This document shows positions 13,472 through 35,189 of a DNA stretch of 64,000 nucleotides, one piece after another (position 1 is the stretch's first letter; each line of letters begins with the position of its first letter). Both the position numbers and the translations under genes were made by a program. Source of the stretch: Pseudomonadaceae bacterium. GTDB taxonomy: Bacteria; Pseudomonadota; Gammaproteobacteria; Pseudomonadales; Azotimanducaceae. The DNA lies in NCBI GenBank assembly GCA_024743175.1, contig JANSXA010000008.1, positions 1-64,000 of the forward strand. The letters run 5' to 3'. Below the pieces are notes generated by a model. The model was not told the DNA's origin, did not search any database, and was given only the letters and a program-made list of their open reading frames with translations.

Positions 13472-13473
13472 GC

Positions 13474-14320: not shown

Positions 14321-14348
14321 CTCCTTAAGTTAATCTGATTTTTCTGCA

Positions 14349-15425: not shown

Positions 15426-15446
15426 TTTTGCGCTTTCGATTACTAA

Positions 15447-18500: not shown

Positions 18501-18513
18501 GTCAATCCATCCC

Positions 18514-19677: not shown

Positions 19678-19689
19678 GACGCCTCCTTG

Positions 19690-20988
19690 CTATGTCACTT
19701 TGATTTTGCCGGTAACAGCGCTGTTGATTAGCGTAGTTTTGTATTCTTTTAGTTTTTCGATTTGTTCAATTTGTAACTCAATCGAAGCATCAATTTTGGC
19801 TGACATATCTTCTAAGTATTCGAAGATCTGAATCTGCTCATCTACTTTGGGAAGAACAACTAGGAGATTCTTCAAGAGTTCCTGACTTAACGAAGCACGT
19901 ATTACCAAATTCATTTCTTTTACAAAATACTCCCTCATCATCGGGGCGTTGAAGTAATACTTTGAAAATTCTTTCGTCAACTTATCGCTTGTAGGCCGAA
20001 AGCGAATGAGAAACCCTGCGAATGTTGCCTTCTCTATAGGCTTGAAGCAGATGGATGCAAATCCAATTTCATCAATTGTCTCGGAAGTTCGAGTAAAGAA
20101 TACGTCTCCAGATCGAACCGAATATGACACTTGATCGAAAAACGACGATTTCGCTAGTCCATCAACTATCATAGGAAGCTGACGATTTTTGTAAACGTCA
20201 CCATAACTAACAAACGGATACCCTTCGCCAAAGTATTCAGCACCAGCGCTAACTCCATTTTGGGTTCTACCTAGATATCTAAGCTTCTTTACTTCCCAGT
20301 GTTGCGGTATTTGGCCGATCCAGTCCACACCTGAATCTTTCAGTGGTGCATTGGGATTTAAACCTTGGGTAACTGCTTTTTGGATGATGATTTGCTTGCG
20401 CTCTTTGAGCAGGGTGATTTGTTTTTCTTTTATGGCGATTGCTTCATCAATTTGACCAGTTTTTTCATCGAGAAATTGGGCAATTGCAATTTGTTCTGCT
20501 TTTGGAGGGAAAACAAGCAAGCTATTGGCTATATGATTGAAGCTAATAGTCTGTCTCACACCAGAACCGAGTAACTTCATGTATGCGACATCGTATCTAT
20601 GAAAAAAATAGTTGAAATAGTCTCTACTAATTCCCACTTTTTCTTTTAAAACTATATATCCGGCGCTTACTACTACATTGATCTTGGAAAGTGCTATTCG
20701 TAGGCTAATTAAGTCGAAATTGAGGTTTAGAGGATTTATTAAAAATTCTCCAGTTAGTACTTCTTGGTAAGAGGCTTTTGTGGATAGTGGAACTTTCTCA
20801 TCATCTTTTCTGACCACTTTCCCGAAACTGATTGATCCGCAATTTAGGGTCATATTTTGTGTGTGTTTCTTCTCGTAGAACAAATGCTTTAACTTTTCTA
20901 TTTCCCAATGCTCCGGAATATCAGAAATCCAATCTTCGCCTGAGCTTTTGTATGCATCATATTTTGGCATTTGAACTAGAGATTGCAT
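19690..20988 (-). CDS. hsdS: Type I restriction specificity subunit HsdS
   Basis: A 432-residue DNA recognition subunit with two target-recognition domains separated by conserved helical spacers. The two halves both start with an SGVDWIG/IPQHWEVKKL-type segment (SSGEDWISDIPEHWEIEKLK at residue 15, and DSGVDWIGQIPQHWEVKKLR in the middle), and both end in a coiled coil (KEKQITLLKERKQ; EQIEKLKEYKTTLINSAVTG). The ATG overlaps the hsdM stop by one base. The recognised sequence cannot be read from the protein. Confidence 0.9.
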   Translation of the reverse strand: MQSLVQMPKYDAYKSSGEDWISDIPEHWEIEKLKHLFYEKKHTQNMTLNCGSISFGKVVRKDDEKVPLSTKASYQEVLTGEFLINPLNLNFDLISLRIALSKINVVVSAGYIVLKEKVGISRDYFNYFFHRYDVAYMKLLGSGVRQTISFNHIANSLLVFPPKAEQIAIAQFLDEKTGQIDEAIAIKEKQITLLKERKQIIIQKAVTQGLNPNAPLKDSGVDWIGQIPQHWEVKKLRYLGRTQNGVSAGAEYFGEGYPFVSYGDVYKNRQLPMIVDGLAKSSFFDQVSYSVRSGDVFFTRTSETIDEIGFASICFKPIEKATFAGFLIRFRPTSDKLTKEFSKYYFNAPMMREYFVKEMNLVIRASLSQELLKNLLVVLPKVDEQIQIFEYLEDMSAKIDASIELQIEQIEKLKEYKTTLINSAVTGKIKVT

Positions 20989-23375
20989 TAGCCTTCTCCC
21001 TGAACTTCTGCCACATCGACACTAAGTATTTGCGCGATCAGACCTTCTGCCTTTTTTTCCAACTCAAGTATGTCGTTAGCCACTTCTTCGGGCGAACGTA
21101 GAGGCTTGTGCTGGTAGAAGTATTTCGTGAAAGAGAGCTCGTATCCAATTTTTGTACTATCTAAGTTGATCCAAGCTTCTTCGACATGCGGTTTGACTTC
21201 GGTGTGGAAATACTGATGTATCTCTTTGTTAAAAGGCACTGACTCTGCATCCCGCAGATCACTACTTGGCTCATAGGTTATGTACTCACTTGGATTATCC
21301 GTTGAGTAATAACCATAGTCCGGCAATTGATCCTCCGTACAATCCAAATGTTCAAGTAAAGAGGCAAGCTTGTCGTCTGAAAGCTTGATGTTTTTTTTGA
21401 GCACTTTAGCAGCGCTTTCGTCATACCAACTTACGGCATTTAAAATCAAATTCTTCTCCGGCGCTGAAAGCTTGATTTTCTGAGCTTTAAGCACGTCATC
21501 AACTCTATTATTAAAGACATTGAAGTCGCCAAACTCTTGGTCACCGATCTCGGTCATTAGAAGATTGGCAGCCTCAAAAATAGCCCGATGTTTCAGCCAG
21601 TGTTTTTCATCAAGAAGTTTCGATTTTGATTTGGCGTTTACACTAAAATGCTTGTCGTCACACCATTCGAGAATTTCCTTACTCAGCGCCTTTAAATAGC
21701 CTTTTTCGTAGACTTCATCGCCATGCTCGGTGAATAGATGCTCCATCACGTCAGTGAGTGACTTGTCAAATCGCAACCGGGCGATCGCATCCGGTGTAAA
21801 TTTGGCTTTTCGCCGATCTGGACGTTCAATATTTACCTTGTAGTATCCAAAATCACTATTGCTGAATACTTGGCTGGCGATGCCGACAGGATCGTGGTTT
21901 GCATTTAGTTCACGATCTATTGATGCGCACTCAAGATAAGTTTGCGTGATTTCTTCGATATGCTTAGGAGTAAATTCGCAGTTCTTTTCACCAAGGTTTT
22001 TGCGTAGCTTTTTGAATAGCAAGTTAGCGTCAATTAGCTGGATCTTTCCCTTTCGTGACGAGGGTTTATTGTTATTGAGCAGCCAGATGTAGGTGGTGAT
22101 CCCTGTGTTGTAGAAAAGATTGTTGGGTAGCTGAACAATAGCTTCGAGCATGTCGTTCTCAATGATGTAGCGACGGATATTGCTTGCGCCGCCACCGGCA
22201 TCACCCGTAAACAGGCTAGAGCCGTTGTGAACTGAAGCTATCCTGCTGCCCATTGGACTCGATGATGGTGATTTCATCTTGCTCACCATCTCCATCAGAA
22301 AAAGAAGCTGTCCATCACTAGAGGAAGGGGTAGCGTCAACCGTTTCCTTGTTACCCCAATAGTCCGTAAGTTCGACCTTAAAGCGAGAGTCGATTACGTC
22401 TTTCCCATCTTTGATATTCTTTGCTTCCGATGCCCAACTTTTGCCATATGGCGGATTGGAAAGCATGAAGTCGAAGCGATCTGATGCGAACTCATCGGTC
22501 GAAAGTGTGGAGCCAACCTTAATGTTTGCCGGATTGTTACCCTTAATCATCATGTCAGACTTACAGATCGCATAAGTCTCATCGTTGATCTCTTTGCCGT
22601 AAAGATGGATGTCGCGATTTGCTGCAGGGTATTTTTCTTCGATAAAGTTCTGTGATTCTGTGAGCATCCCACCACTACCACACGCGGGATCGTAGACAGT
22701 AATTGTAAGCGGGAGGTCGTCCTTGATAGGATCAAAGACCAAATGCGTCATCAGTTCAATCACTTCCCGCGGCGTAAAGTGCTCTCCGGCCTCTTCGTTA
22801 TTCTCTTCATTGAATTTACGAATTAGCTCTTCAAACACATAGCCCATACCCAGATTGGTGAGCGCCGGCAATTTGTTGCCGTCGGGGTCTTCCCGTTCGT
22901 TGGGCGTAAGATTGATATAGGGAGAAACAAATTTCTCCAGCGTATCAAGCAGAACATCTTTGCCCGCCATGTGTCGTATTTGCGTCTGCAGATTAAAGCG
23001 CTCGACGATTTCCTTAACATTCGCGCTAAATCCATTGAGGTATTCCTCAAAGTTGGCGAGCAATATCTGTTGGTTATTAGTGGCGGTACTGAACAGGCTC
23101 TTAAGCGTCCATTTGGACGTATTATAGAAAACGTAGCCCGAAGCTTCCTTAAGCGGCTCTTCGTCGAGCTCGATGGCCTTCATTTCCTTTTTTTGGAACT
23201 CAACTTCCTCTAGAACGGCTTCCTTATTCTCTTCTAGCAAAGTATCTAGGCGTCGCAACACCACCATTGGCAAAATGACGTCGCGGTACTTTCCGCGCAC
23301 ATAGACATCGCGCAGGCAGTCATCAGCTATGTTCCAGATAAACGAAACGAGTTTGTTGTGTACGGAATGATCCAT
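20988..23375 (-). CDS. hsdM: Type I restriction methyltransferase HsdM
   Basis: A 795-residue adenine methyltransferase, longer than the usual 500-550 residues because of a C-terminal helical extension. The SAM motif YDPACGSGGML and the catalytic NPPY motif (SNPPYGKSW) are both present, and the N-terminal helical domain (VHNKLVSFIWNIADDCLRD) is typical. With HsdS it protects host DNA. It is the first gene of the operon and has an AT-rich stretch upstream that may contain the promoter. With hsdR broken this pair may act as methylation only. Confidence 0.9.
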   Translation of the reverse strand: MDHSVHNKLVSFIWNIADDCLRDVYVRGKYRDVILPMVVLRRLDTLLEENKEAVLEEVEFQKKEMKAIELDEEPLKEASGYVFYNTSKWTLKSLFSTATNNQQILLANFEEYLNGFSANVKEIVERFNLQTQIRHMAGKDVLLDTLEKFVSPYINLTPNEREDPDGNKLPALTNLGMGYVFEELIRKFNEENNEEAGEHFTPREVIELMTHLVFDPIKDDLPLTITVYDPACGSGGMLTESQNFIEEKYPAANRDIHLYGKEINDETYAICKSDMMIKGNNPANIKVGSTLSTDEFASDRFDFMLSNPPYGKSWASEAKNIKDGKDVIDSRFKVELTDYWGNKETVDATPSSSDGQLLFLMEMVSKMKSPSSSPMGSRIASVHNGSSLFTGDAGGGASNIRRYIIENDMLEAIVQLPNNLFYNTGITTYIWLLNNNKPSSRKGKIQLIDANLLFKKLRKNLGEKNCEFTPKHIEEITQTYLECASIDRELNANHDPVGIASQVFSNSDFGYYKVNIERPDRRKAKFTPDAIARLRFDKSLTDVMEHLFTEHGDEVYEKGYLKALSKEILEWCDDKHFSVNAKSKSKLLDEKHWLKHRAIFEAANLLMTEIGDQEFGDFNVFNNRVDDVLKAQKIKLSAPEKNLILNAVSWYDESAAKVLKKNIKLSDDKLASLLEHLDCTEDQLPDYGYYSTDNPSEYITYEPSSDLRDAESVPFNKEIHQYFHTEVKPHVEEAWINLDSTKIGYELSFTKYFYQHKPLRSPEEVANDILELEKKAEGLIAQILSVDVAEVQGEG

Positions 23376-23616
23376 TAAGTACCCTTAGTATTCTTTTTCC
23401 TATTGCCCGAATGGCTGATGCATTGCCCAGGTGACAGCAGCTACCAGCAAGCGTGCTATATCGCAACGCAAGGCCTCTGGCTAGTTCGTATTTAATCAGA
23501 CATAGCACATAAGGTCTTCATAACTAAAGAAATTTTGAGAATAAGTAAGGCTAAACGTTTCTGTTTTGCTCTGAATCAAGAAAATTGTGGCAAGAGGCCT
23601 GGCGTTAAGTGGTGCT

Positions 23617-24000
23617 CAAGCGGCAATCCGCTTGGCGATGGGGTCCAGGGGAGAGCTGAAATCTCCCTTGGCGCGCATCCAATCCGCGCAGGGTTGGTCT
23701 CGATGAAATCGTCATGGGGGTCTTGGGGGTAGCGCAGAATGCTCCCCCAAGTGGTGGTGCAGCGGCCAAACGTTTGCTCGCGATGAACCGGCGATACGGG
23801 TTCAATGGCACACCGAGGCTCAATGCCGAGGAGTGTGCCAGGCGAGAGGGATGCAACGGGAGAGCGCCAGCGTCTCCCTTGCCAAGCTAGGCGTTGGACT
23901 AGGAGCGCAGCTCCGGCAAATCGAAGATTTGTAGTACAACGCACAGCTTGCGTGCAACGCGAAACAAGTTTCGCTGGGTGTATTACACAGTGGATGTGTA
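23617..24000. ncRNA. GC-rich array of nine hairpins, candidate structured RNA
   Basis: About 380 bases with no plausible reading frame but a dense run of perfect hairpins. Stems are at 23618-23623/23628-23633, 23649-23654/23662-23667, 23722-23729/23744-23751, 23807-23813/23833-23839, 23858-23863/23873-23878, 23902-23906/23910-23914, 23917-23922/23926-23931, 23959-23965/23968-23974 and 23984-23989/23995-24000. A closing stem GCGTTG/CAACGC (23891-23896 with 23937-23942) encloses two of them, as in a multibranched RNA. The strand cannot be decided. It lies between hsdM's upstream side and the 3' end of the STAND operon. Identity is unknown; an ORF-less omega-type RNA is one possibility. Confidence 0.5.
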
Positions 24001-24011
24001 CTGCGCTTGGT

Positions 24012-24569
24012 CTAGTTTTCTTCGGACATTCCTTTCGTAGCTTCAACAGCTGCGCCTAATAGATCTAAGGCTTCTTCGTGAAGATCCATAGCCCATTGCT
24101 CGATATCTTTAGGACCCTTGTGCTCCACGCCAGACCTAATTGTTTCTTCTCTGATCCACTGATAGCCCGCAATGAGCACTGCACGAGCAATTGTCATGTC
24201 TGGGACAGCATCGGGAAGGCTGAAGGGGTCGATATGAGCAACAACCTTGTCGCGAAAATTGCGAAGCTGTAACCAGTATTCTGACCACTGCTGCTCAGTG
24301 ATGCCTGCAGCCTGAAGAACATGTGAGCGGAACGCTGGAACTTCTTTCACCAGCTTCTTCCAGTGCACTTCATTGCTGTCGGTCCCGAATAATTTAGTCC
24401 ATTCGATCACGAAAATGCGTATGTACTGTGCACGAGTGTGAAGCCAAAGTTTGGATTCTCCAGCACCTACTTCCAACAACGCTCGGTGATATGTCAGGGA
24501 ACGCAGAGCATCATACATGGTCGTAAAGGCATCATGAGCTCGTTTTAAATCAGGCGGGAGATCAGGCAC
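24012..24569 (-). CDS. HEPN-like protein
   Basis: A 185-residue all-helical protein starting at GTG 24569. The signature RNFRDKVVAH ends in R106-x5-H112, which fits the R-x4-6-H motif of HEPN RNases, and the preceding helix carries conserved-looking W and Y residues. It is the last gene of the STAND/TPR operon, 23 bases after the TPR gene, in the place where a toxin or effector would be expected. The motif is short, and a non-catalytic HEPN-like fold is possible. Confidence 0.55.
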   Translation of the reverse strand: MPDLPPDLKRAHDAFTTMYDALRSLTYHRALLEVGAGESKLWLHTRAQYIRIFVIEWTKLFGTDSNEVHWKKLVKEVPAFRSHVLQAAGITEQQWSEYWLQLRNFRDKVVAHIDPFSLPDAVPDMTIARAVLIAGYQWIREETIRSGVEHKGPKDIEQWAMDLHEEALDLLGAAVEATKGMSEEN

Positions 24570-24592
24570 TTATCCCTTCATTGTTCAGTTTG

Positions 24593-25549
24593 TTAATGTT
24601 CGAGTACTTCCAATTGTTCGCGTATTCTGTGTTGATAGAAAAGGTTCGTCCGCTGAGTTTCCAGATCGAGCCCTGCTGAAAACACTTGGACCGCTGCTTC
24701 CTTCTTTGCCAGTTCAAGCAAACAAGAGCCTGCAAACAGAAAATCACGCGCGCTTTCCTGTGTTTTGTGGACAAGGCTCGCGCGAAACTTGTCCGTAGGC
24801 CCCCAAGCCTCAAGTACCTCCACTTCCAAAAATTCTGCAAATTGCCCAAGAGCTTTAGAATGTTGTCCCGACACCATCGACAAACAAGCTTGCATGGAGC
24901 CTAGTTTGTTCTCAACTGCTGCGACTTTGTGCTTGTCTTTCGCGTTCAAACCAGCCTGCGTCGTCTCGTCTTCCCGCACCTGAGAATATCTGCGTAAAGC
25001 GTCTTCATAATCTCCGAGTTCTATCGAGGTTTCGAACAATCTACCTTTGATGTTGTAAACAAAACTTTTTGCCAAGCCGTTTTCCGGGAACTCCTTGGAG
25101 AGATGTTCCATCTTCGCAAGATGTTCGGTCATCAGGCTTTTAGCCTTCTCGAAATCAAGCTCCCGAGAAAAAACCGCGTTGTGTGTGCACCGAAAATTGG
25201 CTACTTCAACGCCGACCGAGTTTGCGCCTAGCTGAGCGTGTTTTGCACTCCGTTGGAAGTGCTTCGTAGACGCATCAAAGTTACCGCTCATGAACTCTAC
25301 AAATCCTTGTTCATATTCGAGCATGTCGATATCTCGGTGTGTGATCTCATCATCGAGTTTTTCGTGGTAGAGCGTGAGCAGTTTTAGATTTTCCCGCGAA
25401 GCATCGTCCAAAAAACCGTCGTCCCTGTATCTAGAACGGATGGTGCCCGCGTAGTCCTTAAGGTCTTCAATACTCAACTTGTATAGGTCTGAAGAATCAA
25501 TATCGAGGGCTCGTCGATCATTGATCGACACTGAGTTATCTGTGTTCAA
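24593..25549 (-). CDS. TPR-repeat protein of the STAND operon
   Basis: A 318-residue helical protein with tetratricopeptide-like repeats (EYEQGFVEFMSGNFDASTKH, LFETSIELGDYEDALRRY, LLELAKKEAAVQVFSAGLDL). The start is TTG at 25549, overlapping the stop of the upstream NTPase (TTGA), so translation is coupled. In Avs-type STAND proteins the TPR sensor is fused to the NTPase; here it is a separate polypeptide and may be the sensor or a scaffold between NTPase and effector. That role is inference. Confidence 0.65.
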   Translation of the reverse strand: MNTDNSVSINDRRALDIDSSDLYKLSIEDLKDYAGTIRSRYRDDGFLDDASRENLKLLTLYHEKLDDEITHRDIDMLEYEQGFVEFMSGNFDASTKHFQRSAKHAQLGANSVGVEVANFRCTHNAVFSRELDFEKAKSLMTEHLAKMEHLSKEFPENGLAKSFVYNIKGRLFETSIELGDYEDALRRYSQVREDETTQAGLNAKDKHKVAAVENKLGSMQACLSMVSGQHSKALGQFAEFLEVEVLEAWGPTDKFRASLVHKTQESARDFLFAGSCLLELAKKEAAVQVFSAGLDLETQRTNLFYQHRIREQLEVLEH

Positions 25550-27528
25550 GTTTTAAGCCTGGGTACTCTGGATAGCATATAGTGTGCCAGAAATCCGGTG
25601 CCATTGAGCACGCCGTTTGTTTGCATATCTGCAAGTGGAATGAGTGGGTTTTCGCGAGGGGTAATTCTGCGATTGAAGTCATCAACAAATTCGCTCGCCC
25701 GTCCATCTTCTCCAGTGGCCTTCCAGTACGCATAGGTTTCAGCCAGTGCGCGAAAAAATTTTGGGCTACGTCTGCCGTCGAGTTTAATGACTTCTTCCAC
25801 AAATAAGGGGCTCGTCAGGAGGTCTGTGATTTCGCTGTAGCGCCCCGTTGCAGCAGGTAGATGGAACAGCAAGGCGAGTTCTTCGAGCTTCGAACCTTCG
25901 TTTCTCGAATCCCACATGAACGTTGCATTCGACCTTGAAAAATCGAAATTCACCTGATCTAACATGCGGGAAAGTTCCTGCGTGTGTTCGGCGCTGTGAA
26001 GTTCTGCGGCCATATATGAAGCAGATCGATCACTCAGGAGAACAAAGAATGTGTCGTGGCAAACTTTTAGGCGGGGATAGCCTTGTTCATCGAAGTATTT
26101 TGTTATAAGTCTGTTTGAGTACGCAGTATCAAGATGGTGCTCAAGATCATCGGTACTCAGCTTTGTGTATCGCAGAATCGTTTCAAGTGAACAGCGGTCA
26201 CCGAACTCCCGCAAGCAGCGCAGAACTGATTTGACAGTCTTTCGAGTTTCACGCTCAGTGGTGAGAGCGCGCTCGTACTCTCGCTCATACAAAGCTTCCA
26301 TGCCAGGCGGCGGCGTGTTTGGATCGAATTCCTCGATGTTCTGGAATAGGTGTTTGAGGTATACGAATTGATGCTGGCTCGCCTGAATCAGTGACTCTCT
26401 GAGATTTTCAGGATCACCGCTCCATCCTTTTGATTTGAGCGCTTTGATGATTGAAGGGTCGTCTAGCTTTTGATCAATGTAGAAGTAAATGTCGTCTGTT
26501 TGATAATCGCCATCTTCGGAGAGTTCAATATGGAGCGCGTTTGGCGGAGTACTTTCCTTTTGGAATGAACGCGAGGAAACGATGAGGAAAACATCAGCCG
26601 GTAGGTAAGACGGGAGAAAGAGTGTGTTGAGAGACGGCGGGGCAGAAGGATCATCCTTAGCTATCTCGTCCAGCGCATCGATGATGAAGACGAGCGGTCG
26701 TTTCGCGAATTGACCCGATGAAGCCAGATAATCGAGAAGGTGACGAGCAAAATCAGGCGAGCCAATCTCTTCCCGCTCGGAAGCGGGATATCCTTCAAGG
26801 TCGTATATGCTATCAAGTTGAGAGAGCAGCACACGATGAAATTGTGGGGTCGTACTTGCATCCGTCTCGTTAAAGTACCAGCCAAGACAAACATCTTTGG
26901 AAACGAGATCGGGAATGCTCTGGACGCACTGCGAAGTAATCCAGCTCTTGCCCGTTCCGGTGATACCCGATAAGGCCACGTAGCCAGAGTCCGAGTCTTC
27001 TATATAGTCGGCTATTGCTCTGAATAGACCCTCACGGGGCGCTACATCTTCATCGTCAAGAGCTGCTAGGCGTGCATTGCCGTGATGGTGCACTCGTCCA
27101 CGCAAGCCATAGCGGGCTAATAGCTCATCAATCTGATCAGAGTACTCGGAGAATGAAGGCTCCCAACCGAATTCCGCGCGATGGATGAACCACTTGTTCA
27201 AAAAGACTGCGAGATGCTCAAGTGGAGCGCGATTATCACAAAGTTCTGCACAGGCTAAGAAGAGTGTTCTGGGTACTTCTGTATCCGGGCCAAAACCCTT
27301 GCTATACCTATCGAATTTACCCCAGCTAATCTCATCGTACCCATTGTAAAGATTACCGAGTCCAGTTCCGCGATACGGAGGCTCGACTCGCGCGAACTCT
27401 ACAAAGAATTCGAAATACTTGGATGAAGTAACGCCTTCTTCGATATAGGGTTTGTAACGTGTAAGTCGGAGTACTCGTTCTAAGAGCGGACGATATTTAG
27501 GAGGAATGTTTTGGATAGAAGGCTGCAT
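25546..27528 (-). CDS. STAND/NACHT-like NTPase
   Basis: A 660-residue signal-transduction NTPase. Walker A GITGTGKS is at residues 188-195 and Walker B FIIDALDE at 281-288, followed by an R-containing sensor (SSRSFQKE). The C-terminal part is helical with a winged-helix-like segment (CSLETILRYTKLSTDDLEHHL) as in NACHT/AP-ATPases. The N-terminal 150 residues are unrecognised and may be an effector or adaptor. It is the second gene of the operon, after the small basic protein, and overlaps the TPR gene. Antiphage function is inferred from family and setting. Confidence 0.75.
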   Translation of the reverse strand: MQPSIQNIPPKYRPLLERVLRLTRYKPYIEEGVTSSKYFEFFVEFARVEPPYRGTGLGNLYNGYDEISWGKFDRYSKGFGPDTEVPRTLFLACAELCDNRAPLEHLAVFLNKWFIHRAEFGWEPSFSEYSDQIDELLARYGLRGRVHHHGNARLAALDDEDVAPREGLFRAIADYIEDSDSGYVALSGITGTGKSWITSQCVQSIPDLVSKDVCLGWYFNETDASTTPQFHRVLLSQLDSIYDLEGYPASEREEIGSPDFARHLLDYLASSGQFAKRPLVFIIDALDEIAKDDPSAPPSLNTLFLPSYLPADVFLIVSSRSFQKESTPPNALHIELSEDGDYQTDDIYFYIDQKLDDPSIIKALKSKGWSGDPENLRESLIQASQHQFVYLKHLFQNIEEFDPNTPPPGMEALYEREYERALTTERETRKTVKSVLRCLREFGDRCSLETILRYTKLSTDDLEHHLDTAYSNRLITKYFDEQGYPRLKVCHDTFFVLLSDRSASYMAAELHSAEHTQELSRMLDQVNFDFSRSNATFMWDSRNEGSKLEELALLFHLPAATGRYSEITDLLTSPLFVEEVIKLDGRRSPKFFRALAETYAYWKATGEDGRASEFVDDFNRRITPRENPLIPLADMQTNGVLNGTGFLAHYMLSRVPRLKT

Positions 27529-27543
27529 TGCAGCCTGATCTTA

Positions 27544-27795
27544 TCATTCTGGCTCGTTGGTTGGTGGTGCAGTAGTATGAGATTTCTCTGCAAGATAGCG
27601 TCTTGCGGAACTCATTTCCGAGTCAAATGATGGCCCGCAGATTTCGCGCATTCTTAGTTCCATAAGTTCGCTTAATACTCTACCTGGTCGATCACCATGA
27701 TTGCGAGCATAGGTACTAAAAAGCCACCAGAGAGCTGGGTCTACGTCTTCCTGATAGAAAGACATTGTCATACGCGGTTTCTTTTTACTCGCCAT
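27544..27795 (-). CDS. Small basic protein heading the STAND operon
   Basis: An 83-residue protein with a basic N-terminus (MASKKKPRMTMSFYQEDVD) and a helical middle (GRVLSELMELRMREIC). It lies 15 bases before the NTPase and has the same strand. No helix-turn-helix is clear. It could be a regulator or antitoxin-like partner of the operon. Similarity unknown. Confidence 0.55.
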   Translation of the reverse strand: MASKKKPRMTMSFYQEDVDPALWWLFSTYARNHGDRPGRVLSELMELRMREICGPSFDSEMSSARRYLAEKSHTTAPPTNEPE

Positions 27796-27998
27796 GCAAA
27801 TTCCCTTTCGCTTGGCGGTTGAACAATCCCCATATCAGTAGCAATCGCCCCCAAAAGGGTCAAGAAAAACCTCTAAGGCGCTGAATTGGCTAGGGGAATT
27901 ATTCGCTTGGAAAATCAGCGTTTGGGGGAAACGTTCCCCTTCAGGGCGAGGCCAACCGAAACTAGAGTTTTCACGAGTTCAGCAAACAGGCAGAAATC

Positions 27999-28202
27999 GT
28001 GGAAAAAAGTAACCAGGAAAACTCAGTCCCGAGCAAAGAGAATCTTTCTTGGTCTGAGTGGAATCAGAACGGAAAGGTCATACAGTGCGGGCAAGTATTC
28101 GATAGGATTTCAGGGCGGACCACCGTCACGAAACACGGACCCAAAAACAGCTCTATTGTAACATACCACGCGAACGGATTCATTTCTGTGGATCGTTACT
28201 GA
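27999..28202 (+). CDS. Small hypothetical protein before the membrane gene
   Basis: A 67-residue frame from GTG 27999 to TGA 28202, ending one base before the next start codon. The product (MEKSNQENSVPSKENLSWSE...) is polar with a beta-rich C-terminus (GRTTVTKHGPKNSSIVTYHA). No ribosome site is obvious and no family is recognised. It is kept because of the tight junction with the next gene. Confidence 0.4.
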   Translation: MEKSNQENSVPSKENLSWSEWNQNGKVIQCGQVFDRISGRTTVTKHGPKNSSIVTYHANGFISVDRY

Positions 28203-28203
28203 G

Positions 28204-29484
28204 ATGGGTAGCTACGACTCCATCATTTCCAAAGCCATCGGCGGGCTGAAGATTGACGGCGAGCTCTACGACCTCCGGGCTCGCCACGATTCCGAATTGG
28301 CGGCCCAGCAGGAAAAGCTGTTTGCCAAGAAACATGATGCAGAAGAGTTCGCCCGTGCGGCTCGCTCATCAAGTCTTGCGCTAACAGATACATATTCCGG
28401 CTTTGATACCAGCGTGGCTGCACTGCGCGGAGCATTTGATGATCATGCAGTATTGATTGAGCGCCTCGATTGTGAAGTCGAGGCCTACCGGATGCGCCAT
28501 GGCTTAACCAGCGAACCCGCGCAAATCTCGCCTGTCGAGGGAGCGATGGCGATTGGGTTCATTACGATGCTGGAATCCGTTCTCAATGCCGGGTTTTTCA
28601 TGACTGCGCATCTCAGCGCAGGTCCCATTGCCGCGCTCCTAACCAGCACTTTGATTTCAGTTACGAACATGAGCGTTTCTGTAGCTGGTGGTTACTTCGC
28701 AGGGCGCGGCTGGAACTACGGGGCTCATGCTCCCGATGCGGATGATGCCGAGTTCGTGAAAGTGCGCAAAGCATCGCGAATTGGCAGTGCGATTACCTGG
28801 GCTGCACTGGGGCTTTTTCATCTCAGCGTTGGCTGCGTCCGCGCGCAAGAAACCTTCGACGTAACGCATGGAATTAGCGAGTACCTAGATGTGCTGGCCA
28901 CACCAGAATCCCTGTTTCTTGTGCTCATTGGTCTAGTGATGTCCGCATTCGGCTGGCACAAAGGTCGCACAGCGTTAGGTGAAAAATACCTTGGCTATGG
29001 CGAGCGGGCACGTGCGCTCAGCGCAGCGAAAGAAGCGATTTACGATGAGCTCGATGCGGGATGCTATGAAATCGAGCGGCTTGAAACCGAAGCGCTGGAA
29101 ACGCTCGACGATACGAAAGATGAAATCACAAGTACGGTCACGGCCTCTAACCAGGCAGTACATGAATACATGGCTGAAGATCGCGCGATGCGCCGCGCGA
29201 TCCAAAACGCACACAGCGCGATGACAGTTGGGATCGCTCAAATTTGCTCGACTCATCAGATGGGTCGAAAAGGCAAAACCAAAAACCGCGAATTGCCTAC
29301 GGAAACGCTGCGGGGGCTGACAGATTTTGATGCTTACCTGCCCGGCAATCCGCCTGCTTACTTTGATGCTCCCGATTTATCCCGTGCTCAAATTTCGATT
29401 AGCGAGGCCAAGAGCCGGGCGATGGAAAGCTTAAGCGAAGCATTCAACAGGGCGCGCAATGCCGCGCGAGGAGATGACAAATGA
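28204..29484 (+). CDS. Membrane protein with coiled coils, transfer-linked
   Basis: A 426-residue protein with an N-terminal coiled coil (about 20-95), four hydrophobic segments between about 115 and 260 (IGFITMLESVLNAGFF; LLTSTLISVTNMSVSVAGG; SAITWAALGLFHLSV; LFLVLIGLVMSAFG), and a long C-terminal coiled-coil or charged region. It overlaps the next gene (ATGA) and heads the module that ends with the coupling protein. Known conjugation families do not match on sight. A role in anchoring the coupling protein or the relaxosome at the membrane is inference. Confidence 0.65.
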   Translation: MGSYDSIISKAIGGLKIDGELYDLRARHDSELAAQQEKLFAKKHDAEEFARAARSSSLALTDTYSGFDTSVAALRGAFDDHAVLIERLDCEVEAYRMRHGLTSEPAQISPVEGAMAIGFITMLESVLNAGFFMTAHLSAGPIAALLTSTLISVTNMSVSVAGGYFAGRGWNYGAHAPDADDAEFVKVRKASRIGSAITWAALGLFHLSVGCVRAQETFDVTHGISEYLDVLATPESLFLVLIGLVMSAFGWHKGRTALGEKYLGYGERARALSAAKEAIYDELDAGCYEIERLETEALETLDDTKDEITSTVTASNQAVHEYMAEDRAMRRAIQNAHSAMTVGIAQICSTHQMGRKGKTKNRELPTETLRGLTDFDAYLPGNPPAYFDAPDLSRAQISISEAKSRAMESLSEAFNRARNAARGDDK

Positions 29485-30362
29485 AGAAACGAAAAACACA
29501 TGCACGCCGTAGGAGTGCCGCAAATACAAAGACACTTGTAACCTATGGAGTTGGTATCGTTGTATTTGGTGGCGGGCTCGTATTCGCGGCGCTTGATCAA
29601 ATCGGTAAACCTGTTGCCAATGAAATTGGCTGTTACACGGAAATTGATGGGGCAAAAACTGTCGCGCTTGTTGATGCGAGCGACCCACGCTGGTCTCTCG
29701 AGCAAGCCAGATCTCTGCATAACTACTTTGACGGACTGTGGAATGATCTGGACTTCAATGAACGTTTAAGCGTCTATACCAGCGAAGGCGATCAAATTGG
29801 TTCGGTACCACGACCTCGATTTGGGGTGTGCGGACAAGCGAGATCGTCAGAAGAGCTGGAAGATATTGGCGCATCCTCGGCGACGGCAGGATATTTGGCA
29901 AAACAAAAGCAGCGGCTCTACGAAAAACACCTCGCACCTGAACTTGATGAGATGCTGGCAATTGATCCTGACCAGTCTCGACGCCAAAGCACCCAATCTC
30001 CGCTGTTAGAACTAATTGCTGATTTATCCCGCTCTGCAAATCTGCAAAATGGCTCCCACATGGTGGTAGTGAGCGATCTGCTCCAGAATTCTGACAGTGT
30101 GTCCTTCTGCCGCGTTCAAAATGATATGCCTCCCTTTAGTGCGTTTTCAAAAAGAGCAATCTACAAAAACCGACTTCAGCCGAATTCGCTTGAAGGTGTG
30201 AGCGTTGATCTTCTAATGATCCAGCGTCCTGGCTATGGGCGAGGCGGCTTACGATTTTGCGCAAGCGAGGACGAACTCGCACAATTCTGGCTTGACTATT
30301 TTGATGCGAATGGCGCAAGCGCCCGGATTATCCGTATCCGTCACGGCATCGTTGGGGGCTAG
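29481..30362 (+). CDS. Membrane-anchored protein with VWA-like domain, unknown
   Basis: A 293-residue protein with a basic N-terminus, one membrane anchor (residues 18-42, TLVTYGVGIVVFGGGLVFAA) and an exported domain. The strand VALVDASDPRW and the later VVVSDLLQNS look like the first and fourth strands of a von Willebrand A-like fold, but the full MIDAS is not shown. Cysteines are scattered. Overlaps the preceding gene by four bases and is 2 bases from the coupling-protein gene. Role in transfer unknown. Confidence 0.6.
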   Translation: MKKRKTHARRRSAANTKTLVTYGVGIVVFGGGLVFAALDQIGKPVANEIGCYTEIDGAKTVALVDASDPRWSLEQARSLHNYFDGLWNDLDFNERLSVYTSEGDQIGSVPRPRFGVCGQARSSEELEDIGASSATAGYLAKQKQRLYEKHLAPELDEMLAIDPDQSRRQSTQSPLLELIADLSRSANLQNGSHMVVVSDLLQNSDSVSFCRVQNDMPPFSAFSKRAIYKNRLQPNSLEGVSVDLLMIQRPGYGRGGLRFCASEDELAQFWLDYFDANGASARIIRIRHGIVGG

Positions 30363-30364
30363 GC

Positions 30365-32101
30365 ATGAACATCCAACGACGTCGTCACACACACGAGTTT
30401 TGTAGCGCTTTGGTGTTTGCAGTGCTGGCCGGGTGGATTGCCACCCAGCTAGGGCCGCTCTTCGTTTACGGCCAAGTACAAACATGGCCTGCAATCGTAT
30501 ACGGATTTGCAGCGATTTGCGCTCTGAGTGCGATCCAAAACGGTTTCGAGATAATCGCCCACGGAGTTGATTGGTTTGGCGCGCGCAGCGCAACGGGAAA
30601 AAGCGGTACAGCGCGCTGGGCTAAATTCAAGGACCTAAAAGGAGAAATGTTGCGAAAAGGTAGTGGTCCGTTTTGGGGGCTGATTGCAAAAACGAGGAAG
30701 GCTTTGTTCATCGATTTTTCGTCTAATGCCATGTGCGTGGGGCCAGCGGGCTCAGGTAAGGGAATCAATTCCGTTGTTCCCAGCGCAATGGGCATCAAAT
30801 CCTCCAAGGTCATTGCTGACTTTAAAGGTGAGCTTGTTTGTATGCTCAAGAAGCCGCTGGAAAAGCGCGGCGAGACTGTGCGTGTTCTCAATCCAGGCGG
30901 GCTATGGAAGGACACAATTGGGCAAAGTGACGCTCTCAATCCGCTCGATATCATTGTTGATGACCTAAAGCGCGCCGAGGGTCTGCGCGACGTCTTTGAT
31001 GATCTGCGCGAACAAACAGCGCAAATTCTGCCAGAGCCGAGCGAGCAGGATGGTGAAAACACTTACTTCCGTGAAGGTTCCCGCCGTCTTATAGCTGACG
31101 CCATGCTCATGGAAGCGATGGTCGAAGAATATGATGCCACGCTTTCGAGCGCCGCATTACTCATTGAGGATCGCGATGCTCTTGAACGCAATGCTCGCTG
31201 GATTATAGGTGTCGACCTTGAAGGGAAGCCACTACCGGCAGGTCCAATGCCAATAGAGCAGACACTGTGGGCAGTCAATCACAGCGAACACGATGTTGAA
31301 GAATTCTCTAAGCTCGTTCGGGCACGTGCCCGCAATCTACTGGCGCTCATGACGGGTGAAGATAATCGCACTTTTGAGAGTTTTATTAGCGGCGCACAAC
31401 AAGCTCTCGCACCATTCGCATTCGGACGGCTGGCTCCAGCAATGGGGCGCAGCACTTTTAGCCCCGACGAGCTCAAAGATGGTATCACCGCGTTATTCAT
31501 TGTTGCAGACGCCAGCCGCATGGAAGCCTACAAACCATTCCTAGGTTTGGCGCAATGGTGTGTGCTCACGATGCTCAAGAGACACAAGAAGAAGGAAGCG
31601 TCTGTTTATTTCCTCCTTGATGAAAGTACGAACTACAAGATTCATGGCTTAGCACCTTCGTTACTAACTTGGGGAAGGTCCTACGGGATTCGCCTTTTAC
31701 TTTGGCTACAAGATTTACAGGCATTTGAAACGATATACGGCAAGACAGCGCTTGATACGTTGTTGTCGGAAACTGAGATCAAGCTCTTTCTACCCGGACA
31801 GAGAAACCCGAAGACATTAGACCTCCTGCAAAAAATGCTGGGCGATCAAAGTGTCATGGCATCCAGCGTTTCACAAAAAGATGAGCTAGGACTGAATGAA
31901 AATTTTTCTGAGTCGTCGCGGCCATTGATGTACGCGAATGAAATACGTCAGAGCCATAAGGGTTTGCTCTTTGTGCGGCGGGCACCTCCAATTTTGGTTG
32001 AGCCTGTGAGCTACGCCGAAATTCATCCCTGGCGCAAGCAAGTGGGCATTAATCCCTTTCACGGAAAACCATTTATCAAGAAAACCAAAATGAGAGTGTA
32101 G
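30365..32101 (+). CDS. Type IV coupling protein (VirD4/TraG family)
   Basis: A 578-residue conjugative coupling ATPase. Two N-terminal membrane segments (residues about 15-60) are followed by Walker A GPAGSGKG at about 125-132 and Walker B VYFLLDES at about 415. The end is a typical TraG tail. It brings the relaxase-DNA complex to a secretion channel. No secretion-channel genes occur in the island, so a helper's channel is needed. It is followed at once by a small membrane gene. Confidence 0.88.
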   Translation: MNIQRRRHTHEFCSALVFAVLAGWIATQLGPLFVYGQVQTWPAIVYGFAAICALSAIQNGFEIIAHGVDWFGARSATGKSGTARWAKFKDLKGEMLRKGSGPFWGLIAKTRKALFIDFSSNAMCVGPAGSGKGINSVVPSAMGIKSSKVIADFKGELVCMLKKPLEKRGETVRVLNPGGLWKDTIGQSDALNPLDIIVDDLKRAEGLRDVFDDLREQTAQILPEPSEQDGENTYFREGSRRLIADAMLMEAMVEEYDATLSSAALLIEDRDALERNARWIIGVDLEGKPLPAGPMPIEQTLWAVNHSEHDVEEFSKLVRARARNLLALMTGEDNRTFESFISGAQQALAPFAFGRLAPAMGRSTFSPDELKDGITALFIVADASRMEAYKPFLGLAQWCVLTMLKRHKKKEASVYFLLDESTNYKIHGLAPSLLTWGRSYGIRLLLWLQDLQAFETIYGKTALDTLLSETEIKLFLPGQRNPKTLDLLQKMLGDQSVMASSVSQKDELGLNENFSESSRPLMYANEIRQSHKGLLFVRRAPPILVEPVSYAEIHPWRKQVGINPFHGKPFIKKTKMRV

Positions 32102-32110
32102 GTGAAGAAA

Positions 32111-32395
32111 ATGAACAGACCTTATCATCACAAAAAATTCAGGGCGTCGCGGATCCTCGCTGGTTTATTTCGCGGGCTCGCGAAACTAATTATGCGCTGG
32201 CCGCTGATTTTGTTGGTTGTCGTTGTGGTCTCGCCAATCGGGCCACACCTACGGATTGAATACCGTTATCACGGTGATCAATACAGCAAACAAATCATCG
32301 ACTGCATGCTCTTAGGCACGCGCGGATATATATACCGCATCGGTCACGAACACTGCTCGTTGGTTTCTATAGTGGATACCAGAAACGAGAACTAA
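32111..32395 (+). CDS. Small membrane protein after the coupling protein
   Basis: A 94-residue protein from the ATG at 32111 (a GTG at 32102 is also in frame). It has a basic N-terminus, one strongly hydrophobic segment (WPLILLVVVVVSPIG) and a short periplasmic part with two cysteines (CMLLGTRGYIYRIGHEHC). It starts 10 bases after the coupling-protein stop. The family is unknown; similar short proteins often follow TraG-like genes in islands, as I recall. Confidence 0.55.
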   Translation: MNRPYHHKKFRASRILAGLFRGLAKLIMRWPLILLVVVVVSPIGPHLRIEYRYHGDQYSKQIIDCMLLGTRGYIYRIGHEHCSLVSIVDTRNEN

Positions 32396-32449
32396 AAACG
32401 TCGGAAGGTCCTGCTTCCGATCAATTGAAACTTAGTAAGAGGATTAGAT

Positions 32450-32722
32450 ATGAGTGAATCAACCAAGAGCGGGCGGAAGCCTGACTTTGTAGCCTATAGC
32501 GTGAAAGAGTCACATGACGGTGCCGGTTACTGGAACAAAGTTGGCGCTGCCTGGGAGCACAAAGACGGCAAAGGCGTTGAGATCAATCTGGACAGCGTCC
32601 CCATTGATGGCCGGATCACACTGAGAGAGATGCGTGAACAACACCGTGAAGACTACGAAAAAGCAAAGGAAGAGTTATCACCAGCAGAAACGGCGCAGCG
32701 GTCTCGTGGCCGATCTCGATAA
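32450..32722 (+). CDS. Small conserved protein of mobile islands
   Basis: A 90-residue protein with the sequence VAYSVKESHDGAGYWNKVGA followed by a HKDGKG and PIDGRI stretch. Many alphaproteobacterial plasmids and islands carry proteins with this pattern. Function unknown. A GGAT-type ribosome site is weak (AAGAGGATTAG, 6 bases before the ATG). Confidence 0.6.
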   Translation: MSESTKSGRKPDFVAYSVKESHDGAGYWNKVGAAWEHKDGKGVEINLDSVPIDGRITLREMREQHREDYEKAKEELSPAETAQRSRGRSR

Positions 32723-32741
32723 CGCGCGCGACAAAGGCAGA

Positions 32742-33116
32742 ATGAGTTACGCCAACAACCATCCGGATTTGCGCAAAGGTATGCCAGATCAGCATCGCAT
32801 GCAAAACCCGCTGCGCCAACGCTTCGATGAGGTGCGCGATCCGTTGATAGCGCGCCAAATCGCTGGCATGAAAAAGACGGAAGCGCAGCGGAGAGACGAA
32901 AGCAGCGGGTCGGGCATGGTGGCAAGCGACAAACCTTTCCCGGAATTGAAGCCAAAACATGCGAAGACAGTAAAAAGCCAGAGTTTTAACCAAGCTTGGT
33001 TGCGGGAACATCGGACTGCCGTGATGGCGCACTATCAGGCGCAAAGCGAGCAAATTGCGAGCGCATCTACGAAGAAATCCCGAACGCGCGGTGTGAGCAG
33101 AGGGTTTAATCGATAG
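32742..33116 (+). CDS. Small basic protein, unknown
   Basis: A 124-residue basic protein from ATG 32742, chosen because the longer frame (start 32634) overlaps the previous gene by 89 bases. The sequence is low in hydrophobic residues and rich in K, R, Q and M (MSYANNHPDLRKGMPDQHRM...). It is probably disordered or nucleic-acid binding. Nothing further can be said. Confidence 0.45.
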   Translation: MSYANNHPDLRKGMPDQHRMQNPLRQRFDEVRDPLIARQIAGMKKTEAQRRDESSGSGMVASDKPFPELKPKHAKTVKSQSFNQAWLREHRTAVMAHYQAQSEQIASASTKKSRTRGVSRGFNR

Positions 33117-33170
33117 GCGGGATAAAAAGAATTATTTTCTTGGATTCTCGGCAAAAACTTGCTACATGTT

Positions 33171-33193
33171 CTTGTTATGTTCTAACTAACAAG
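33171..33193 (+). promoter_or_regulatory. Inverted repeat before the integrase operon
   Basis: CTTGTTA at 33171-33177 and TAACAAG at 33187-33193 form a perfect 7-bp inverted repeat with a 9-base centre, about 50 bases before the small gene that precedes the integrase. It may be an operator for the integrase operon. A repressor has not been identified. Confidence 0.4.
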
Positions 33194-33240
33194 GAGATGA
33201 ACGTATAGAAAAATAGAGCGGAATAGAAAGGAGACGTGTT

Positions 33241-33543
33241 ATGAGTCAACATGACCGAGCTGTCAAAAGCGAAAGCGGAGCGAGAGCGAGTCCAGCACCA
33301 AAGCTGGAAGTCGAAGACTACCGAGATCACTTGGTTGAATTTGAGTTTACTGCGAAAGAAGAGCGAGAACTGTTAGAAACGCTTTGGGGCATCATGCAAA
33401 CCATGGTCGATATTGGCTTCGGACTAGATGCAGTTCAACAGGTGATCCCCGCATTTGTAGGATCTGTCTCGCCTAGTACAGAAGAAATTACACAGGCATT
33501 TAATGACAATGTGAGTCACGATCAAAAAGGAGCCAAGCTATGA
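33241..33543 (+). CDS. Small protein coupled to the integrase
   Basis: A 100-residue protein that ends in an ATGA overlap with the integrase start, so the two are co-translated. The middle is helical (KEERELLETLWGIMQTMVD) and there is no known DNA-binding motif. It may be an accessory protein of the recombinase or a regulator. Ribosome site AAAGGAGACG before the ATG. Confidence 0.6.
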   Translation: MSQHDRAVKSESGARASPAPKLEVEDYRDHLVEFEFTAKEERELLETLWGIMQTMVDIGFGLDAVQQVIPAFVGSVSPSTEEITQAFNDNVSHDQKGAKL

Positions 33544-35189
33544 CCAAAGCTGTGATCTATTGCCGCGTATCAAACGCGAAACAACGGACGGAGGGGCAAG
33601 GCTTAGATAGTCAAGAGCATCGTTGTCGAGAGTACGCGAAGTCACGCGGATACAATGTTGTCGCCGTCTTTCCGGATGACGTTTCGGGCGGCGGGGACTT
33701 TATGAACCGGCCAGGCATGGTGGGGTTGATCAATCATTTAGCGGCCGAACCACAATCAGACTATGTTGTGATTTTTGATGATCTGAAACGTTTTGCCCGC
33801 GATACGCGCTTTCATTTGATCTTAAGAGAAACGCTCGCAGGGTTTGGGGCGCGTGTCGAATGTTTGAACTTCATCTTCGAAGACACGCCTGAGGGTGAAT
33901 TTTTTGAGATTCTTAATGCCGCTCAGGGTGAGCTTGAGCGAAAACAGAACCGACGACAAACTCTGCAAAAGATGGGTGTGCATCTTGCGCATGGGCGCTG
34001 GCAATGGGCAGTGCCTGCGGGGTATCGCTGGGACAAAGTTCAAGGACGAAGCCATGTTGTGATTGACGAGACTAACGCGTCGGCGATAGTCGAAGCCTTA
34101 GAGGGCTATGCGTCAGGAAGATTAGACTCACAGGCCGAGGTGAAGCGCTTTTTGAATGTGCGGCCTGAATTCACTGGAAAAAGACGTTTCACTAATCAGC
34201 GTGCGAAAGACATATTGAGCAATATGTTCTATGCGGGTTACTACGAATTTCCAAAGTGGGATATACCGCTTACAAAAGGCGAGCATCCTGCGCTGATATC
34301 GTTCGAGACGCACAATAAAATTCAAGCGCGCCTCAAGGGGAAAGCCTATGGGCCATCGCGAAAGGACCTCAGCGTAGATTTTCCATTGCGCGGGTTCGTC
34401 GGCTGCGCCGAATGCGGCCACGGACTAACGGCGTCCTGGTCCAAGGGCAGAAACAAACACCACCCCTACTATATGTGCTTTCAAAAAGACTGTACCAGCT
34501 ACCGAAAATCTATTAGACGGGACGTTATTGAAGGGGAGTTCGAGGCGATGCTCGGAGATCTGAAACCGAGCGCCGCGATCTTTGCTATCGCAAAATCGAT
34601 GTTTACAAAGCTCTGGGCATTTCGGGAAGAAGATCAGCAAAAACAAAGCCACGTTTTCAAGAGTGAAGTGGTTAAACTCGACAAGGAAGTCGAGGGGCTT
34701 CTAGATCGCATCGTGAGTGCATCAAGTCCTGCGGTAATAGCCCGCTACGAAGACCGTATTGATGAAATCGAGAAACGAAAGATTGTTTGCGAAGAACGGG
34801 CTGCGCAATCGGGCAAACCTTACCAGGGGTTTGAGGAGTCTTTTCGAACCGCCATGGACTATCTCGGAAACCCGCAAAAACTCTGGGCTTCCGAGCATAT
34901 AGAGCACAAGCGAGCAGTGTTGAAAATGACATTTTCGGATAGATTGACTTACCTGCGTGGAGAGGGATTTCGAACCCCAAAAACCACCTTACCTTTCAAG
35001 GTGTTAGGGGGTTTTCAGGCAAAAAAGTCTAGAGTGGTGCACCCGACAGGATTCGAACCTGTAATCCCCGGTTTCGTAGACCGGTGCCTTATCCAGTTTG
35101 GCCACGGGTGCAAGAGGGCGCGTATTATCTGGAAGAACGGCCCTGACCTCAACCCTTTATCGTGTCGGTTTTGCCACTTGCTTCTCTAG
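33540..35189 (+). CDS. Large serine integrase, 3' end replaced by tRNA antisense
   Basis: A large serine recombinase that integrates and excises the island. The resolvase domain starts MTKAVIYCRVSNAK with Ser11, then a recombinase domain, a zinc-ribbon (GCAECGHGLTAS ... MCFQKDC) and a C-terminal coiled coil. The normal end is after ...KTTLPFKVLGGFQAKKSR at about codon 498. Beyond it, codons 501 to 549 (HPTGFEPVIPGFVD...) are antisense tRNA-Arg and the chromosome beyond it. The true 3' end is at 2072-2169. The integrated form is likely still translated to 35189, perhaps still active. Confidence 0.85.
   Translation: MTKAVIYCRVSNAKQRTEGQGLDSQEHRCREYAKSRGYNVVAVFPDDVSGGGDFMNRPGMVGLINHLAAEPQSDYVVIFDDLKRFARDTRFHLILRETLAGFGARVECLNFIFEDTPEGEFFEILNAAQGELERKQNRRQTLQKMGVHLAHGRWQWAVPAGYRWDKVQGRSHVVIDETNASAIVEALEGYASGRLDSQAEVKRFLNVRPEFTGKRRFTNQRAKDILSNMFYAGYYEFPKWDIPLTKGEHPALISFETHNKIQARLKGKAYGPSRKDLSVDFPLRGFVGCAECGHGLTASWSKGRNKHHPYYMCFQKDCTSYRKSIRRDVIEGEFEAMLGDLKPSAAIFAIAKSMFTKLWAFREEDQQKQSHVFKSEVVKLDKEVEGLLDRIVSASSPAVIARYEDRIDEIEKRKIVCEERAAQSGKPYQGFEESFRTAMDYLGNPQKLWASEHIEHKRAVLKMTFSDRLTYLRGEGFRTPKTTLPFKVLGGFQAKKSRVVHPTGFEPVIPGFVDRCLIQFGHGCKRARIIWKNGPDLNPLSCRFCHLLL
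35035..35043 (+). repeat. Right attachment-site repeat (att core)
   Basis: TGGTGCACC, the complement of the tRNA-Arg 3' end GGTGCACCA. It is identical to 2063-2071 in the same orientation. The island end inside it is inferred from the reading frame of the integrase. Confidence 0.65.
35035..35111 (-). tRNA. tRNA-Arg(ACG)
   Basis: A 77-base tRNA on the minus strand, starting GCACCCGTGGCC and ending with an encoded CCA (35037-35035). The anticodon loop CTACGAA carries ACG (read as inosine), with the CCGGT/ACCGG stem. T-stem/loop CAGG-TTCGAAT-CCTG and the acceptor GCACCCG/CGGGTGC pair fully. Its 3' end is the island's integration site and is kept intact by the insertion. Confidence 0.95.
35124..35152 (-). 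promoter_or_regulatory. Sigma-70 promoter of tRNA-Arg
   Basis: On the minus strand TTGAGG (35152-35147) and GATAAT (35129-35124) are separated by 17 bases and followed by a GC-rich discriminator (ACGCGCCC), as is usual for stable-RNA promoters under stringent control. It lies 13 bases before the tRNA start. Confidence 0.65.

Follow-up and report, generated by a model that had tools for sequence, protein, structure and literature searches.

We analyzed the first 64,000 nucleotides of contig JANSXA010000008.1 (assembly GCA_024743175.1, a Pseudomonadaceae bacterium placed by GTDB in the Azotimanducaceae), referred to in what follows as the window. It contains an integrated island that carries its own large serine integrase gene (int) at one end and genes for mobilization at the other. 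A first-pass annotation had proposed that this gene is cut by its own integration, its native 3' end being left at the far end of the island, and this proposal holds up both in the window and in paired islands of relatives, as well as at natural junctions where an integrase C-terminus is contiguous with the native tail. We consider it very probable that the element is a serine-integrase island with its phage-type attachment site (attP) inside int, such that integration swaps the C-terminal tail and excision restores the gene. The features on which the argument is built are as follows.

2063..35034, forward strand: whole integrated island, 32,972 bp, delimited by the cores and the family boundary; exact analogue in a tandem array (genome G890)
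33540..35189, forward strand: large serine integrase gene, integrated form, 549 codons, body 1-498
35035-35111, reverse strand: tRNA-Arg(acg), integration target (ARAGORN); right junction attR at 35035
35035..35043, forward strand: shared core TGGTGCACC, right end; TGG is the complement of the tRNA CCA
35052..35059, forward strand: TTCGAACC, antisense T-loop of tRNA-Arg, attB-derived half
2063..2071, forward strand: shared core TGGTGCACC, left end (attL); the family boundary falls exactly here
2062..2169, forward strand: displaced native integrase 3' end (VHLEGESSNLLFETLQEWNEELERLNVNFEEPLL plus stop), conserved in relatives
2085..2092, forward strand: TTCGAACC, tRNA T-loop copy, attP-derived half; 22 nt away from the start of the core, against 17 nt in the tRNA
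2166..2600, forward strand: mobC-like gene, start overlapping the tail stop; same place behind 39 tails
2597..3853, forward strand: MobA/VirD2-type relaxase (Pfam Relaxase, 2.4e-16)

The Two Island Junctions

By its domain plan the protein is a large serine recombinase, with Resolvase, Recombinase and Zn_ribbon_recom domains all above their Pfam cut-offs, Foldseek matches to the whole serine integrase structures 9dxf, 9iu2 and 4kis, and a YCRVS motif that is invariant across 29 aligned sequences. In an AlphaFold model (AF2) the body is confidently predicted to about residue 490; residues 491-549 have a predicted local distance difference test score (pLDDT) below 50 and the rest is mostly above 70. 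From codon 499 the open reading frame (ORF) runs antisense into the tRNA-Arg gene, as the first-pass annotation had stated, and its figure of 49 chromosomal codons is about right, codons 500-549 lying beyond the core start and fewer when the shared 9 bp are left uncounted. In two congeners (G030 and G026) the tRNA-Arg gene adjoins a homologous aldehyde dehydrogenase gene.

At the other end of the island, 33 kb from the integrase body, the fragment 2062-2169 reads ATG GTG CAC CTT..., where the A at 2062 is chromosomal. The codon phase of TGGTGCACC is identical (xTG Gxx) at 35035-35043 and at 2063-2071, the native tail comprises 34 whole codons (2065-2166) in the phase of the integrase, and its stop overlaps the start of the mobC-like gene as ATGA (2166-2169). 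The in-frame fragment and its overlap had been described earlier and can be read directly in the sequence. Arithmetic likewise returns the length that had been given for the joined gene of the circle, 499 + 34 = 533 codons. The mobC-like gene itself matches Pfam NikA-like (2.1e-5) and MobC (1.1e-4), both slightly below the curated cut-off. The first-pass annotation does not mention the T-loop copied in attP, its 5-bp displacement, the variety of tRNA genes targeted or the tandem arrays, all of which are described below.

Right Ends and tRNA Targets

With the integrase as query, genome contigs yielded 38 loci, most of them alphaproteobacterial to judge by the titles, at 40-69% identity (44-53% in 35 of the 38). 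Analysis A2 used 28 of these loci; L012 and L031 were excluded for stops, and L011, L014, L023, L024, L034, L036, L037 and L038 were also left out. The right ends that we examined number 61, namely the window and 60 of 79 integrase matches, the other 19 being mostly partial, weak or with stops. A tRNA gene lies at the integrase 3' end in 56 of the 61 and the integrase frame enters the tRNA in every one of these 56, in phase 1 in 51 cases and in phase 2 in five. Against an expectation of 1/3 the binomial p is ∼2e-19, a value that serves as a guide only since the rows are related and some are nearly identical. Ten isotypes are targeted (Thr 13, Arg 10, Leu 9, Ser 6, Met 6 and Ala 6, with Lys 2, Tyr 2, Val 1 and Phe 1 as the rarer ones); among the 45 loci scanned for both tRNA and transfer-messenger RNA (tmRNA) no tmRNA was found. 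In a tree of 36 integrases, with eight target labels ('partial' tRNA counted as one) and in-frame stops read as X, the target label changes at least 15 times, and Met and Ala are mixed inside one well-supported clade. The antisense part of the integrase ranges from 3 to at least 166 codons among relatives, with two frames leaving the stretch, and with so variable a length a shared function of this part is therefore unlikely.

Viral contigs yielded one integrase relative (L157) and no joined integrase-tail form, and phages gave no match. Among plasmids, 57 records match the integrase, all below 60% identity, and five match the tail-bearing query, none over 80% of the query. In a same-genus genome (L041/L077, G008:C22) integrase and relaxase are in opposite orientation, unlike in the paired islands.

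A terminator-like hairpin with a T run lies at 34985-35003 on the tRNA strand (reverse), within the int coding sequence, where it might stand in for the tRNA terminator displaced by integration. An antisense terminator inside int with at least 5 of 6 pairs (wobble allowed) recurs in 27 of 59 rows; it is confounded by the LPFKVL coding sequence and we do not claim it as a replacement terminator.

Left Ends and the Native Tail

Relaxase relatives occur in 31 of the 36 genomes searched, all holding an integrase relative. The first-pass annotation expected relatives to carry a LEGESSNLLFETL-like tail, and of the 46 regions examined upstream of relaxase genes, 39 do have a related tail in front of mobC; these are the one in the window, 37 further left ends and an inner junction, L086. 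The usual pattern of the tail is a short acidic stretch followed by S/L-N-x-L-F/L and then L-x-x-W. Tail stop and mobC start meet as ATGA in 24 of the 39, as TAATG or TGATG in three and as GTGA or TTGA in two; the remaining ten mostly show a longer overlap, with the ATG inside the tail.

A core could be assigned in 35 of the 39 tails. Where a left end offered several TGGYG candidates we took the in-phase one near the conserved spacing, and the left-side counts of phase and spacing are therefore partly non-independent. This also applies to the distance from the core to the x-W codon downstream of it, which is exactly 50 nt in 27 of 35 tails. Information per base jumps from 0.19 to 1.94 bits at the first TGG base (34 left ends), and tails that closely resemble one another are preceded by left flanks that are unrelated (identity of 0.93 vs 0.31 in one example). 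The phase-2 integrases L121 and L126 pair with the phase-2 tails L070 and L090.

The tail is constrained in two different ways. Ratios of nonsynonymous to synonymous differences (pN/pS) were obtained from 27 of the 39 tails, picked for ungapped spacing and phase 1. For codons beyond the attachment site (att) part, pN/pS is 0.47 in the int frame and 0.97 and 2.06 in the other frames, with 0.89, 1.23 and 0.34 bits at codon positions 1, 2 and 3. Inside the att part (positions 2-28) synonymous differences are few (pS 0.41) and pN/pS is 0.88. This pattern suggests that the att part is constrained as a DNA site, while the tail, which single integrated copies have lost from the gene, nevertheless appears to be maintained for the protein it encodes.

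Core, T-Loop Copy and the 5-bp Shift

Paired islands, for which both ends lie on one contig, permit the two att halves to be compared directly. We tried 21 and kept 18, leaving out L085 (no core), L080 (no tail, at a contig start) and L086 (inner junction); the kept pair L051/L103 is without an ARAGORN tRNA. The core has the same codon phase at both ends in all 18, and core bases are identical at positions 0-2, 4 and 5 in 18/18 and at position 3 in 17/18. The mismatch at position 3 belongs to L073 and narrows the exchange point to TGG, and L092 places it at position 5 or before; both cases may have mutated since.

The T-loop motif starts ∼17 nt from the core start in the tRNA and ∼22 nt from it in the tail. 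A shift of +5 gives the best match of the T-loop copy alone in 15 of the 18 pairs and tied in two, with a mean T-loop identity of 0.58 vs 0.16-0.33 at other shifts. Tails match their own target better than under permuted pairing (3 of 20000 permutations as high, a count that ignores relatedness when same-target elements are often related). Four tRNA-Thr pairs carry TTGAACTC-like copies, coding LNSL[FL]; the 14 non-Thr pairs have TCGAAC (12) or TAGAAC (two), and SN.LF is coded in ten of them. For the Listeria integrase the zinc-domain (ZD) motif has been reported, in the sections of that paper available to us, to be shifted 5 bp towards the center in attB relative to attP (PMC3783163). The +5 shift seen here fits shifted zinc-domain registers on attP and attB, in which case the T-loop motif would be the zinc-domain site.

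One island in a tRNA-Ala gene (L092/L116, G108:C49) has an attP half that is still of Met type, a natural cross-target insertion.

Tandem Arrays and Joined Forms

Genome G890 has a tandem array at a tRNA-Thr gene, its two elements measuring 30,378 and 30,928 bp. The integrase-side repeat (7.3 kb, 94.8%) ends at most 20 bp past the cores and the mob-side repeat (4.1 kb, 79.2%) starts at the cores. At the inner junction 60/60 bases left of the core equal attR and 97/100 bases right of it equal attL. Integrase copy A continues into the native tail, behind which lie mobC and the relaxase gene, the reading being broken only by a 1-nt indel further up in copy A. The outer copy reads into tRNA-Thr, so that one genome with two near-identical integrase copies displays both C-terminal forms. 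Because the mob-side divergence differs, the array suggests two insertions, with attR used as the second site.

Further contiguous in-frame integrase-tail junctions are found at L086, L188 and L189, each followed by mobC, and at L220, which has no recognizable mobC behind it. We also searched for tail-bearing C-termini in sets of 292, 385 and 348 genomes (in the latter two the best 12-13 candidates per genome were scored) and obtained matches in 72, 25 and 69 genomes, respectively. Nearly all of these end about at the core and a few are tails alone. Three candidates for joined forms (G1127, G1017 and G870) turned out to be cut forms on reading the sequence, and G1110 is ambiguous between the two.

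Genome G119, a single metagenome-assembled genome, has 11-12 integrase-end matches, and the several inner junctions and remnants in it look like a piling up of elements at tRNA genes. One of its contigs (L190, G119:C60; 3,443 bp), whose ends overlap by eye, contains an integrase truncated at its N-terminus together with a tail and the start of mobC, and is possibly a circular mini-element or an assembly artefact.

Other Genes of the Island

Two further genes bear on the class of the island and possibly on the control of its integrase.

30365..32101, forward strand: VirD4/TraG-type coupling protein (Pfam T4SS-DNA_transf, 1.1e-34)
33241..33543, forward strand: small gene upstream of int, ATGA overlap with int, motif in relatives

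The motif of the small gene, L-W-x-I...F-V-D/E-L-G-F...H-P-V-Q, stands upstream of int in 22 of the 30 relatives examined. The protein has no match in Pfam or NCBIfam and is a possible candidate for a directionality factor or regulator. By Pfam the island encodes its own integrase, relaxase and coupling protein, the set that marks an integrative and mobilizable element (IME), and no mating-pore proteins beyond the coupling protein were found among the 19 island proteins and five short ones scanned; from its gene content it is probably a mobilizable integrative element. A Fic protein (Pfam) and a small serine recombinase, whose NCBIfam matches are under the cut-off, are also encoded.

The island also carries a set resembling a cyclic-oligonucleotide-based antiphage signaling system (CBASS; 10440-13471, reverse strand), with a DncV-like nucleotidyltransferase, an HNH-SAVED protein and an adjoining gene without a Pfam match, and type I restriction R and M genes (15447-23375, reverse strand) with a DUF4268 gene between them (Pfam). 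An ORF at 19690-20988, within the restriction region, may code for the S subunit.

Proposed Mechanism and Alternatives

We propose that the integrase would recombine attP of the circle, embedded in int with the core TGG at codons 499/500, with attB at the 3' end of a tRNA gene. Integration would thus remove the native 34-codon tail and put antisense tRNA and flanking codons in its place, and the tail fragment would remain at the opposite end of the island, directly ahead of mobC and mobA and with its ATGA overlap. Excision would restore the full int gene and make int, mobC and mobA a single operon with translational coupling. With the T-loop copy 5 bp further from the core in attP, the zinc domain would bind attP and attB in shifted registers. 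Expression of the relaxase is probably tied to the excised state, because excision would join int, mobC and mobA in one operon. Recombination activity, expression of the operon and any effect of the tail on the enzyme are what we infer from these sequences, the expression coupling because of the gene order and the precedent of Tn916.

Several observations weigh against this mechanism. The pair L055/L115 does not have +5 as its best shift, and the inverted symmetry expected of att half-sites is unclear, with no clear center. Seven of the 46 relaxase-upstream regions (L069, L076, L077, L078, L080, L089 and L093) have no recognized tail. ARAGORN finds no tRNA at five of the 61 right ends (L103, L138, L146, L151 and L152); four of these five still end in GFEP- or GIEP-like peptides and the tRNA is therefore probably partial there. 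The joined forms are imperfect: the integrase part is truncated or broken at L086, L188, L189 and L220, copy A of G890 has the 1-nt indel, a frameshift, and the circular-looking contig L190 joins integrase and tail out of frame. No intact full-length joined integrase ORF was obtained from the 292-, 385- and 348-genome searches. Nor did queries made of the joined flanks of two islands retrieve a clean empty site with both flanks from 22 genomes (genus of G126) and five (genus of G113); tRNA-side matches often start at query position 299-301, which is the core, and the contigs of G030 and G026 end just past tRNA-Arg.

Other readings of the same arrangement differ mainly in what the tail is for. 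There is a little less than an even chance that the arrangement is mainly regulatory, integration cutting mobC and mobA from the int promoter and excision reconnecting them, with a minor role for the tail. That 39 tails overlap or abut mobC speaks for a regulatory function, as does the precedent of the Tn916 conjugation genes, to the extent that it is described in the source cited below. A search for a sigma-70-like promoter at 1900-2700 gave no match, a result that is uninformative alone since shuffled sequences average 0.4 matches. The chromosomal flank could, however, drive mobC, and conservation of the tail at the level of protein needs a separate reason.

In another reading the tail swap would be a switch of direction, the native-tail enzyme integrating and the swapped one favoring excision or staying inactive until a second copy or a factor appears. 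We regard this as possible, though on the unlikely side. The tail is conserved and yet lost upon integration, and the archaeal suicidal integrases and mycobacteriophage repressors, as far as the accounts consulted go, show that an attP within a gene can act as a switch of state. However, the integrase body predicted to ∼490 already matches whole serine integrases, integrated forms with only three antisense codons exist, and the small conserved gene upstream of int could itself supply the directionality factor.

It is improbable that the tail is a mere passenger, attP happening to overlap the 3' end of int and conservation of the tail being that of attP DNA. Positions 2-28, which code the T-loop copy, do behave as constrained DNA. 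Beyond the att part, however, the first two codon positions are conserved and the third varies more freely, with the low pN/pS confined to the int frame, and the 50-nt spacing from core to x-W codon also argues against a passenger. That the fragment 2062-2169 belongs to the mob operon as a leader peptide unrelated to int can practically be dismissed: the chance repeat that this would require is just 9 bp in the window, weak as a match on its own, yet the family evidence is far from chance because 51 of 56 right ends share one phase and 18 paired islands are in phase. The +5 motif points the same way, as does the tandem array, in which int and tail adjoin.

Relation to Known Systems

A close parallel to an integrase gene cut at its attP is provided by the Dehalococcoides ssrA islands, where, in the portion of the report available, the 3' end of the serine recombinase gene dsiB likewise overlaps the att site at a tRNA-like gene, and whose authors suggested that DsiB may need the circle, or a neighboring island next to it, to be fully functional (PMC3146451). 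DsiB targets ssrA (tmRNA), unlike the ten tRNA isotypes used here; the distinction drawn between the two is one of target. It is related by its authors to CcrB and has a partner, DsiA, and the accessible part of that account is without a native tail, a T-loop copy, a tandem junction or a mob operon (PMC3146451).

Archaeal suicidal integrases (SSV1, pTN3 and pT26-2) also have attP inside the integrase gene, which is split by integration, and in the sections seen self-disrupting recombinases are called exclusively archaeal (PMC8371274). Those enzymes are described there as tyrosine recombinases with the catalytic domain on the Int(C) part (PMC8371274), unlike the present serine recombinase, which keeps its catalytic body (the 5' part) and loses the C-terminal tail only. 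In the integration-dependent immunity of mycobacteriophages (BPs), as presented in the excerpts consulted, attP again lies in a gene whose C-terminus is altered by integration; the split gene is that of the repressor and the part lost includes an ssrA-like degradation tag (PMC4557955; PMC8092301), whereas here it is the integrase that is split.

The Listeria (A118-family) LI integrase, along with other large serine integrases, offers a comparison at the level of the att sites. A118 is not known to target a tRNA gene, and we know of no attP inside the A118 int gene. The domain plan of the LI integrase is like that of the present family and, in the available text, its ZD motif is 5 bp further out in attP than in attB (PMC3783163). 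Transfer genes of Tn916 are, in the pages consulted, transcribed only after circularization, reaching a promoter only once the circle has formed, as we propose for mobC and mobA; Tn916 is unlike the present islands in that it is a conjugative element driven by Porf7, with no gene split by its ends according to the same pages (PMC11658703).

In the sources at hand, tRNA genes are not among the known targets of serine integrases. In the parts available of two papers on Mycobacterium prophages the attB sites named in tRNA genes are those of tyrosine integrases, and according to the portion seen of a review of IMEs the serine IMEs studied disrupt dispensable genes. Open-licence papers, to the extent that they were searched, showed no description of this integrase family, which is not proof of absence.

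Implications

What emerges is a serine integrase family with sites that are readable from sequence, attP from the end of the gene and attB from tRNA genes of ten isotypes, and an att register shift that natural element pairs display in 17 of 18 cases, in 15 as the only best shift and in 2 as a tied one. The first-pass annotation had also suggested that integrases with odd tails in databases may be the same artefact. This fits the right ends of the present family, and the arrangement explains integrases with antisense-tRNA tails (GFEP- and IELPTS-like); such sequences need to be cut back to the core ahead of any analysis.

Speculatively, the family may sense its state of integration by gene rearrangement, the conserved tail being there only as long as attP exists. 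The proteins of the circle and of the chromosome would then differ in direction or efficiency, the same cut would switch the mob operon, the coded T-loop mimic would permit moves between targets, and tandem arrays would restore the native-tail enzyme from the inner copy; we hold this broader picture only tentatively. The arrangement makes control of the direction of integration by a tail that is present only on the circle directly testable.

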